Position numbers and translations under genes: made by a program
The notes under the pieces: model-generated
Database searches by the model: none
What the model was told of the DNA's origin: nothing
Seen by the model: the letters and a program-made list of their open reading frames with translations, nothing else
Assembly (NCBI GenBank): GCA_011048515.1
Contig: DSDW01000120.1
Coordinates: forward strand, 1 to 34,212
Source of the DNA: Campylobacterota bacterium
Lineage (GTDB): Bacteria > Campylobacterota > Campylobacteria > Campylobacterales > Sulfurovaceae
Length of the DNA stretch: 34,212 nt
Reading direction: 5' to 3'
In this document: positions 4,300-8,177 of the stretch, in pieces
How positions within the stretch are numbered: the first letter of the stretch is position 1
Layout of the letters: each line of letters starts with the position of its first letter

Positions 4300-4920
4300 A
4301 TGTTGACAGTCGCACTTCCAAAGGGAAGGATCGCAGAGCAGACGCTGGAGATCTTTGCGGAGATCTTCGGCGGAGAGTTTAAGTTTGAGGGGCGTGAGCT
4401 GATCCTGGATATGGGAGAGTTCCGTTTTTTGAATGTGCGCAATCAGGATGTACCGACCTATGTAGAGCACGGCGCTGCAGATATCGGTGTCGTAGGTCTT
4501 GATGTCATCACTGAAAAGGAGTTGGATATCATCCAGCTTCTGGATATGCAGCTGGGCAAATGCAAGGTGGCGATCGGTATCAAAAATGAGGATGAGCTGG
4601 ACTGGAGCCGCCCGAATATCAAGATAGCGACAAAGATGGTCAACATCACCAAGGATTATTTCGCTCAGAAAGCAGTGGGTGTGGAGGTGATCAAGCTCTA
4701 CGGTTCGATCGAGCTGGCACCACTGGTCGGACTTGCCGATGCGATCGTGGATATCGTGGAGACAGGCAGTACGATGAGAGAGAATGGACTGAAGGTAGCC
4801 GAAGAGATCATGGACTCCTCGGCATACCTTATCTCTAATAAAAACAGCTACTATGCGAAGAAAGACGAGATCCTTTCTCTCTATGAGAAGATCAAGGAAG
4901 TGGTAGAACGTGACAACTAA
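4300..4920 (+). CDS. hisG: ATP phosphoribosyltransferase, short (HisGS) form
   Basis: MLTVALPKGRIAEQTLEIF; DVPTYVEHGAADIGVVGLDVI; LVGLADAIVDIVETGSTMRENGL; 206 aa and no C-terminal regulatory domain. Confidence 0.95.
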   Translation: MLTVALPKGRIAEQTLEIFAEIFGGEFKFEGRELILDMGEFRFLNVRNQDVPTYVEHGAADIGVVGLDVITEKELDIIQLLDMQLGKCKVAIGIKNEDELDWSRPNIKIATKMVNITKDYFAQKAVGVEVIKLYGSIELAPLVGLADAIVDIVETGSTMRENGLKVAEEIMDSSAYLISNKNSYYAKKDEILSLYEKIKEVVERDN

Positions 4921-5628: not shown

Positions 5629-6063
5629 TTACATAGGCCTATTGCGCTTCTCCCAGTTCGGTTTCAATGTCTTGATACCGGTTTCCTCTTTTAATATTTT
5701 TTCGATCAGGGCGATATCGCTGAGTTTGGATCGGTTTTGGAAGATATAGTATCCTATGACCATTTTGGATTTTAGTTTGAGCCGGTATTTCTCTTCAAAT
5801 GTCTCTATATCGACTGTCTCTGGATCAGTAAACTGGATGACGATCCCCTCGTGTGCTTCGATCTGCTTGGCGCCGTAGGGTGACATTTTACCCTCAAAAC
5901 GGCTCTCTTTGGGGATCAGTATCGTACGTTTTACTCCTTTATCGAGTATCGTGAAACTCCGGTAGTTCTGTTCTGCATCCATCGTTTCCATCTTTTTGGA
6001 AAGGGCAAAGGTGCTGCTTGCAAAAGTGATTATTAACACAATAAACAGGGCTGGTCTTTTCAT
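5629..6063 (-). CDS. secreted 144-aa protein; candidate stand-alone S8 prodomain / I9-like inhibitor
   Basis: Signal peptide MKRPALFIVLIITFASSTFA; C-terminal half GIVIQFTDPETVDIETFEEKYRLKLKSKMVIGYYIFQ...LIEKILKEETGIKTLKPNW fits a beta-alpha-beta-beta-alpha-beta propeptide layout ending in a (A)EPNY-like motif; 8 bp downstream of the S8 protease gene. Confidence 0.6.
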   Translation of the reverse strand: MKRPALFIVLIITFASSTFALSKKMETMDAEQNYRSFTILDKGVKRTILIPKESRFEGKMSPYGAKQIEAHEGIVIQFTDPETVDIETFEEKYRLKLKSKMVIGYYIFQNRSKLSDIALIEKILKEETGIKTLKPNWEKRNRPM

Positions 6064-6071
6064 ACTCTCTC

Positions 6072-8054
6072 CTAGTGTCCGTAGATTTTGATCTTTATGT
6101 TTTTGAGTGTACCGCTGTCAGGGGGCAGCATATCTTTCATCTCAACACGCCAAGTACCCGAAGTGGACTCGCCGAGGAAGGCCGCACTGCCAAGCCTGAA
6201 CCCGCCATCCATCCAATTTTCGTGTCCATCTATAGTAGAGGCAATGGAGTCCTCCTGGATAAGGGTCGTTTTGGTGCCTGAGGGTGAGATCAGTTCTACT
6301 CTGTAATCCGATGCATAGGAAGAGTTATTGTCTATCGTCACCTCGACCCACTCAACCTTGATATCATCATTTATCGTAATATCAAAGGTTTGTGTCGTCT
6401 TGTTATCTGCAATTGGCGTATTGAATGTCTTTGCTGCACTTAGCGAACGCTCTTGGGGAAGATTGCTGTATGTGCTGGTGCAGGTGTTGATCATCCCCTG
6501 GGCATTGATCAGCCCGAAACCGTAGTCGATACTGTGCCAATGGCCGGCAGCATTTTGAACCCAACTCCTATTGGCACTATCAATTTTTTGTGCATGTGCA
6601 GCGATAAGATATTTGACATCTCTCCAGGTCAGATCAGGGCACGCTTCCAGCACCAATGCTACGACCCCGGAGATTGTGGGAGTAGCCGCACTAGTCCCGT
6701 TCATTGCAAAGGTATAGTTTTCACTGGTATCTTCACTCCATGTAGTCATGGTATCGATATTTCCGCTATTGGAGGAAGTTCCCATCACGGTTGTCGTTCC
6801 GATGGTAGGACTATCCTGATAATAGTTCCCGCTGTAGCCTGAGACAAGGATATTTGAGCCCGGACTGGAGTAGTCTGCATGGGTATTGTCATGCTTCAAT
6901 CCAGTGACGGCAATGCAGTATCTGCTGCTCAGCAGATACTGGAGGTTTGCATTCCCCCCGCTTTCCCGATTATTCCCGGCAGGGAAGAGATAGATACGGC
7001 CTTTTCCGTCTCTGAGCTGCGAAGTCCCTAAAGCCATGATGTCTTCATAAAGCGTATCGGTATCAAATTCCGACCCCCAGCTGTTGTTTGTAAGGGCAAT
7101 CTCATTAGCGCCTTCTCCGGTAAGCCAGACCTTTTCAAGTATAGCCGCTCTTTGATTTTCCAGCCAGTCACTTCCGGCGATTTTGGCAAAGGGTGCGATC
7201 CCTCTGACTCCTTTGCCGTTGAAGGCTCTTGCGGCGATGATACCGGCTACCATCGTACCATGGGTATAGTCTCCATCATCCGTAACTGTTGCTGAAGGAT
7301 CGCCGACATTCTCTCCATTATAGGAGCGTGATAGATCCATATTGGCTTCGAGGTCCTCATGATCTGCATCTACACCATCATCCACAACCTGAACGATGAT
7401 ATTTTCTCCCTGGTTATACCCCATATAGCGATGGTAGACTTCCAAAAGAGCGAGATCGTTACCTGCTATGGTTTCTATGCCGCTTTCATTGGTGATCTCT
7501 CCCAAACTTCTAATGTGCCACTGTTTGTCAAAGAAAGTATCGCCAAATGCTTCTTCAGTATCAAGTCCGTCCTCTATACCATTCTCATTCTGGTCACTAT
7601 TATTATGATCCATCCCTAGGTGCATTTCGATATCATCAGGTATAAAGTCATTATCGCTGTCCGGATTTTCGTTGACGTCTGTTATCGTTACTGTGATGGT
7701 CTGCTGTGATTGGTTCTCATAAGTATCTGTAGCCGTAACAAGAACTTCGTAGATATTGTTGGTATCATTATCTTCCGGATTTTCAAAGTCGGGCGGATTT
7801 ATAAAGGATAATGAACCGGTATGAGTGTCAAGAGAAAATTTTGTACTGTCTTCCCCTCCAGATATACTGTAAGTCACAGTATTCTGATTGTATGCCTCAA
7901 TGATGATGACAAAGAGCCTATTCTCCGGTACTAATACAGTACTGTCCGAAGTGAACCGGGGGAGTGTGGGGCTGCTGCTCGTACCGCCTCCGCCACCACA
8001 TCCAACCAGCAGAATTGAAAAAAGTACCGGTAAGATTTTAAATAATCTATTCAT
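6072..8054 (-). CDS. lipoprotein S8 (subtilisin/kexin-like) serine protease with cadherin-like, Ca-binding-repeat-like and C-terminal P domains
   Basis: Lipobox LLVGCGGGG; cadherin-like VTATDTYENQSQQTITVTITDVNE; DSDNDFIPDDIE; catalytic Asp VQVVDDGVDADHEDL, His THGTMVAGIIAA, Ser NGTSAATPTISGVVAL; C-terminal P-domain-like sequence FDITINDDIKVEWVEVTIDNNSSYASDYRVELISPSGT...GTWRVEMKD. Confidence 0.92.
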   Translation of the reverse strand: MNRLFKILPVLFSILLVGCGGGGGTSSSPTLPRFTSDSTVLVPENRLFVIIIEAYNQNTVTYSISGGEDSTKFSLDTHTGSLSFINPPDFENPEDNDTNNIYEVLVTATDTYENQSQQTITVTITDVNENPDSDNDFIPDDIEMHLGMDHNNSDQNENGIEDGLDTEEAFGDTFFDKQWHIRSLGEITNESGIETIAGNDLALLEVYHRYMGYNQGENIIVQVVDDGVDADHEDLEANMDLSRSYNGENVGDPSATVTDDGDYTHGTMVAGIIAARAFNGKGVRGIAPFAKIAGSDWLENQRAAILEKVWLTGEGANEIALTNNSWGSEFDTDTLYEDIMALGTSQLRDGKGRIYLFPAGNNRESGGNANLQYLLSSRYCIAVTGLKHDNTHADYSSPGSNILVSGYSGNYYQDSPTIGTTTVMGTSSNSGNIDTMTTWSEDTSENYTFAMNGTSAATPTISGVVALVLEACPDLTWRDVKYLIAAHAQKIDSANRSWVQNAAGHWHSIDYGFGLINAQGMINTCTSTYSNLPQERSLSAAKTFNTPIADNKTTQTFDITINDDIKVEWVEVTIDNNSSYASDYRVELISPSGTKTTLIQEDSIASTIDGHENWMDGGFRLGSAAFLGESTSGTWRVEMKDMLPPDSGTLKNIKIKIYGH

Positions 8055-8144: not shown

Positions 8145-8177
8145 AAAAAAAGATATCCACCTGAAAGAGGTGGATAT
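8145..8177 (-). terminator. Rho-independent terminator of the rpsF-ssb-rpsR operon
   Basis: Perfect 10-bp stem ATATCCACCT/AGGTGGATAT (8153-8162/8168-8177) with 5-nt loop, followed on the minus strand by a T-run (A-run 8145-8151). Confidence 0.9.

Follow-up and report, generated by a model that had tools for sequence, protein, structure and literature searches.

According to a survey published in 2022, subtilases except ASP have an N-terminal propeptide that serves as an intramolecular chaperone (PMC9549277). ASP of Aeromonas is a kexin-like S8 protease without a propeptide, whose external chaperone, ORF2, is encoded downstream, and homologous ASP-ORF2 operons occur in Vibrio, Shewanella, Chromobacterium and Pseudoalteromonas (PMC5638518). 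Active ASP requires ORF2, ORF2 inhibits ASP with an IC50 of 84 nM, and the C-terminal Lys of ORF2 seems to be in contact with the catalytic centre of ASP (PMC5638518). A separate chaperone gene is therefore not a new principle. For CspB, a prodomain supplied in trans restores folding, its final three residues act as a gate to the active site, and the cleavage position is conserved although P1 varies (PMC3567191). In addition, stand-alone propeptide-like inhibitors exist and can work independently of chaperoning; one of them, SUB1-ProM, adjoins subtilase genes, and SUB1 keeps its own propeptide (PMC6993865).

In this study, we analyzed a stretch of 34,212 nucleotides (the window) from a Campylobacterota bacterium of the Sulfurovaceae, which is part of contig C6 of a 2.08-Mb draft genome. 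An earlier note, made from the sequence alone, had described two ORFs 8 bp apart on one strand, and the sequence bore this out: the ORF of 660 aa is followed on the minus strand by that of 144 aa (Table 1). The intergenic DNA reads TAG-GAGAGAGT-ATG, so that a Shine-Dalgarno-like AGGAGAG, as read from the sequence, shares bases with the TAG stop ahead of the 144-aa gene. Upstream of the protease gene, beyond an intrinsic terminator, lie rpsR, ssb and rpsF (gene names assigned from the sequence), and the genes downstream of the pair are convergent on the opposite strand. It is thus probable that the pair forms a transcription unit by itself. A hisG-like neighbour gene (window 4300-4920, plus strand) has a product of just 206 aa, which suggests a short-form HisG.

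Table 1. Features of the protease/prodomain locus, numbered along the 34,212-nucleotide window
Feature	Position	Strand	Evidence
Intrinsic terminator separating the protease gene from rpsF-ssb-rpsR	8153..8177	-	10-bp stem and T run
660-aa kexin-like S8 lipoprotein protease (P0002)	6072..8054	-	Pfam Cadherin, Peptidase_S8 and P_proprotein; PDB match ASP; triad
P0002 lipobox cysteine C19 (LLVG-C)	7998..8000	-	Sequence; lipobox in many homologues too
P0002 cadherin-like domain, residues 56-125	7680..7889	-	Pfam PF00028, 1.3e-7
P0002 Asp-rich calcium-binding-like segment, residues 132-167	7554..7661	-	Sequence pattern only; Pfam match none
P0002 S8 catalytic domain, residues 216-492	6579..7409	-	PF00082, 5.5e-37
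P0002 P-domain, residues 567-656	6087..6356	-	PF01483, 1.8e-12
144-aa prodomain-like protein (P0001), chaperone/inhibitor candidate	5629..6063	-	AF2 fold; Foldseek rank 1 = 3wqb_B; family profiles; tail rule
P0001 signal peptide, about residues 1-21	6001..6063	-	Sequence; inferred cleavage between TFA and LS
P0001 prodomain-fold part, residues 74-135	5659..5844	-	AF2 pLDDT about 90-98
P0001 C-terminal tail WEKRNRPM, 8 residues, Met144 at predicted P1	5632..5655	-	Tail length 54/55; Arg at +8 in cis-fused relatives

P0002 is a kexin-like S8 protease by its S8 domain above the Pfam cut-off, its P-domain and its intact catalytic triad D225/H265/S455, with the oxyanion N361 present. The best PDB sequence match was the Aeromonas sobria serine protease (ASP; 3hjr/3wqb, 6.5e-43), and furin and kexin were also among the best matches. 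The domain order proposed earlier, from lipobox through cadherin-like and calcium-binding-like segments to the catalytic domain, held for the lipobox, the cadherin and the S8 domain, while the calcium-binding-like segment remained a pattern without a Pfam match. The further claim that the protease lacks its own propeptide agreed with both searches made inside P0002, as no I9 or other Pfam prodomain was found at E<=10, and the profile of the P0001 family gave no match. Outside the window, the same genome encodes a second S8 lipoprotein of ~810 aa with a P-domain (G000:C24:14743-16011; L001 718-3150); no prodomain for it was detectable in cis or among its neighbours, and it may rely on P0001 as well, or on a partner that escaped detection.

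The partner, P0001, begins with a Sec signal as read from its sequence, and its closest named relatives are Sulfurovum and Campylobacterales MAGs (82-85% identity). With a dN/dS of 0.14-0.19 against three close orthologues, P0001 is a real chain under purifying selection. Searched alone against curated families/Pfam and PDB sequences, it matched nothing and thus no prodomain family; searches of PDB sequences with P0001 and its family, both by single sequence and by profile, returned chance matches only, and the profile of the family failed to reach 3wqb_B. An AlphaFold2 model built on a 20-sequence alignment (mean pLDDT 84.8) predicted a prodomain fold, with the order E-H-E-E-H-E across residues 74-135, which is the strand/helix order of a subtilisin propeptide that had been suspected in the C-terminal half. 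When the model was compared with 350,542 PDB chains in Foldseek, rank 1 was 3wqb_B (prob 0.97, E 0.055), the ORF2 chaperone in complex with ASP. Fervidolysin, pro-subtilisin E, PAM protease and the PC1/3 prodomain were in the top 50 as well, but RRM domains, which belong to this fold class, were scattered among them, and the E-values were weak (0.055 for rank 1).

Relatives of P0001 were gathered in three rounds, namely a single-sequence search of 150 genomes of the family, with matches in 22, a search of 399 genomes of the order with a 20-sequence profile, with matches in 43, and an inspection of the genes around related S8 genes. Most relatives come from draft genomes, and the N-terminal alignment columns are noisy. 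One of the 22 genomes, G019, entered through a false match to an unrelated gene (L047), which was removed, and its true partner was found there later. In a Pfam scan of 55 family members, the two families matched by most of them were Fervidolysin_NPro-like (nine members, best 5.9e-5) and ORF_2_N (eight members, best 2.8e-6), both of which are subtilase prodomain families. Profile comparison with hhalign linked the P0001 group to the group with the best ORF_2_N matches (prob 98.9) and to prodomains fused in cis to S8 (97.0), against 1.1 for ribosomal protein S6, whose alpha/beta fold is related, and 0.1 for SSB, both taken from the same genomes as controls. As to single families, P0001 had no match to ORF_2_N (PF18492), for which its relatives peak at 26.9 bits versus a cut-off of 29.2; I9 (PF05922) matched neither P0001 nor any of the 55 members at E<=0.1; and P0001 did not match PF22148 (Fervidolysin_NPro-like), the cut-off of which was passed only by the upstream-split relatives L202-L205 (G010, G271, G289), each adjoining an S8 gene. 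The evidence that these profiles supply for a putative prodomain identity is independent of the structure model. Taken together, the 55 aligned members, the AlphaFold model and the profile comparisons identify P0001 as a subtilase prodomain, and the proposal that such a prodomain is encoded here as a separate gene gained support from the predicted fold, the ORF2 match and the profile links.

The end of the chain is constant. Counted from a conserved Pro-Asn (or its counterpart) that closes the last strand, exactly 8 residues precede the stop in 54 of the 55 aligned proteins, the total length of which varies from 108 to 172 aa, and the same tail length was found in 11 of 12 further upstream-split proteins; the motif was not placeable in two divergent downstream partners, L151 and L152. 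In the cis-fused relatives, residue +8 is an Arg, invariant in seven aligned sequences, after which the mature enzyme follows, and this Arg lies at the predicted cleavage site. Given the fixed tail and the Arg at +8, the alignments are most simply read as showing a stop codon where the scissile bond would be, and the free C-terminus would be a product-like occupant of S1. A possible parallel, that the furin prodomain likewise ends 8 residues past the equivalent strand, was set aside, as a literature search for the furin prodomain sequence found nothing. Many relatives end in -xPR or -QPK, P0001 and its closest relatives in -RPM, and the predicted P1 of P0001 is thus Met, not Lys/Arg, which counts against the prodomain reading. 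A co-variation of the C-terminal residue of the chaperone with an acidic protease column near the S1 region (Fisher p 0.008, uncorrected) was also considered and was rejected, since phylogenetically independent pairs show no signal.

We consider, at a probability of about 0.78, that P0001 is the separately encoded prodomain of P0002 and acts in trans both as a folding aid and as a product-like blocker of the active site. The homology to prodomains, the predicted fold, the propeptide-less protease, the pairing of the genes and a tail length coinciding with the predicted cis cleavage site are established by the data, and we infer binding, folding help, inhibition and release. Both proteins would be exported, P0002 to become a lipoprotein and P0001 a soluble periplasmic or secreted protein. 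P0001 would bind the nascent catalytic domain and aid its folding, and its 8-residue tail would reach into the active-site cleft, placing Met144 at P1. Since its chain stops at the position where propeptide and enzyme are normally cleaved apart, P0001 would act like a propeptide already cut, and autocleavage would not be needed; activity would begin once P0001 is removed or degraded.

Four arrangements of the S8 and prodomain modules were seen among relatives. First, as in the window, the prodomain gene comes after a P-domain S8 gene; this is the state of most relatives in the family, and of more than 20 in the order. Second, the prodomain gene lies directly upstream of a P-less S8 gene (L064, L129, L157-L160, L166, L168, L169, L176, L202-L205). 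Third, the prodomain is fused N-terminally to S8 in eight proteins (L113, L114, L117, L118, L121, L123, L124, L128). Fourth, a P-domain S8 gene and the prodomain gene are unlinked in two lineages, f23 and genus g11. In f23 the two genes are ~600 kb apart on a single contig (G442) or 43 kb apart (G447); in g11 (G011, G030) the S8 gene still adjoins rpsF-ssb with the prodomain gene elsewhere, which suggests that it was the partner gene that moved. The neighbourhoods of the lone S8 genes were searched and no partner was found. The prodomain gene of g11 stands alone beside another small conserved gene (L039 4496-4879, L040 4694-5077; L201 4207-6030). A tree of the catalytic domain separated the first and fourth arrangements from the second and third with support 100/100; since its root is the midpoint, the direction of change is not fixed by it, and either two splits or one split and a re-fusion could have taken place.

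In three genomes, tandem arrays of the order protease-prodomain-protease-prodomain were found (L107, L108, L116). The protease paralogues share 62% or 68-69% identity within a type and 49-52% between types, the prodomain paralogues 57-71% and 39-50%, respectively, and the prodomain tails fall into two classes (ending in Q, or in R/K/M) that track the protease paralogue. As both partners cluster alike, each tandem protease keeps its own prodomain partner. Some prodomain proteins have a lipobox of their own (L046, L094, L095, L099, L100) and are therefore probably membrane-anchored like their proteases. For the fused protein L123, Foldseek aligned the AlphaFold model across prodomain and enzyme to unautoprocessed pro-subtilisin E (TMt 0.70), and this model was given little weight, its prodomain having a pLDDT of 93-96 and its catalytic domain being poor.

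These arrangements bear on the strongest competing explanation, namely that P0001 is a dedicated periplasmic inhibitor with a prodomain-like fold, serving self-protection or timing, and that P0002 folds without it, in the manner of SUB1-ProM propeptide mimics or of the potempin-type neighbours of secreted proteases. The unlinked prodomain genes of the two lineages would fit such a regulator. The target proteases of stand-alone I9-like inhibitors keep their own propeptides, however, and P0002 has none; the same domain is fused in cis in relatives, and the gene order is that of ASP-ORF2, a system whose protease depends on the partner for activity. Stand-alone propeptide-like inhibitors are known, and SUB1-ProM does adjoin subtilase genes, but SUB1 itself retains its propeptide (PMC6993865). 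We regard a pure inhibitor as unlikely on balance.

The separately encoded prodomain is also favored by the way the two genes occur together. Of 150 family genomes, 27 encode a close relative of P0002 (E<=1e-45), and a P0001 relative was present in 21 of these, against 1 of the other 123 (Fisher 2.8e-19, relatedness of genomes ignored), so that the conservation of the pair that the earlier note had named as a check was observed. Of the six exceptions, two have an S8 gene cut off by the contig end and one, G028, has a weak partner next to its S8 gene; a search for a downstream-type partner came up empty in the other three, G021, G039 and G047. The protease/prodomain pairs are for the most part adjacent, co-occurring and under purifying selection. 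It is accordingly very improbable that the ferredoxin-like fold is a coincidence and that P0001 has an unrelated role in the same operon: the fold class is common and P0001 itself has no significant family match, but the profile comparisons, with clean controls, tie it to cis prodomains and to proteins like ORF2, and the invariant 8-residue tail, the co-occurrence and the fused forms speak against a coincidence as well. In G126, both genes have decayed to one 199-aa fused remnant (L044 4670-5269) at the same hisG-methyltransferase locus, in which S8 residues 402-566 run in frame into the final 30 residues encoded by the prodomain gene. That the split in the window is likewise a degenerating locus, or an assembly error, is scarcely credible given the low dN/dS of P0001 and of P0002 (0.15-0.17 for the latter against close orthologues), the intact two-gene form in dozens of genomes and the export signal that each protein has.

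The data argue that an ASP-like propeptide-less state, as predicted from sequence, is common in Campylobacterota across many genera. The wider proposal stands at even odds in our estimate: Campylobacterota would hold a large undescribed class of subtilases from which the prodomain was split off precisely at the scissile bond, with the prodomain gene downstream of P-domain proteases in one architectural lineage, upstream of P-less proteases in a second, and unlinked in two groups; autoprocessing would be bypassed, contrary to the published view, and ASP would no longer be an exception. The cis, upstream-split, tandem and unlinked relatives form a natural series on how a foldase detaches from its enzyme, in which one can also ask whether autocleavage is dispensable. 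Furthermore, the rule that a stop takes the place of the scissile bond is a concrete prediction and a simple way to find partners that family searches leave unnamed.

Compared with known systems, P0001 and P0002 share single features with several of them. The S8 plus P-domain architecture of P0002 is that of furin/kexin and PC1/3, and the PC1/3 prodomain is in the Foldseek top 50 of P0001, whereas those prodomains are in cis and autocleaved and P0001 comes from a gene of its own that stops at the corresponding site. The prodomain fold is common to P0001 and the fervidolysin-type prodomain (PF22148), which relatives of P0001 match, some over the cut-off; fervidolysin, however, carries it in cis, and P0001 is separate and without a PF22148 match. 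The clostridial CspB prodomain (PF18425) works when supplied in trans and its tail blocks the active site, yet it is naturally in cis and the trans form is laboratory-made, while P0001 is naturally separate. POIA1, the yeast peptidase B inhibitor, TgMIC5 and SUB1-ProM are free-standing prodomain-like subtilase inhibitors (PMC6993865), as proposed for P0001, but their targets keep their own propeptides and P0002 has none. The closest system is ASP-ORF2 (3hjr, 3wqb; PF18492): in both, a P-domain S8 protease without a propeptide has a small exported partner directly downstream, with a prodomain fold (predicted for P0001) and a C-terminus expected at the catalytic centre. ORF2 ends in -QPK, as do several P0001 relatives, others ending in -xPR and P0001 itself in -RPM. 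Unlike ASP, P0002 is a lipoprotein that carries cadherin and Asp-rich segments ahead of its catalytic domain, and the host phylum differs from the genera named for ASP-ORF2 (PMC5638518). Unlike ORF2, P0001 falls outside PF18492 by sequence, and since it fails this family test, it would best be classed as a variant that probably works like ORF2, rather than as an ORF2.
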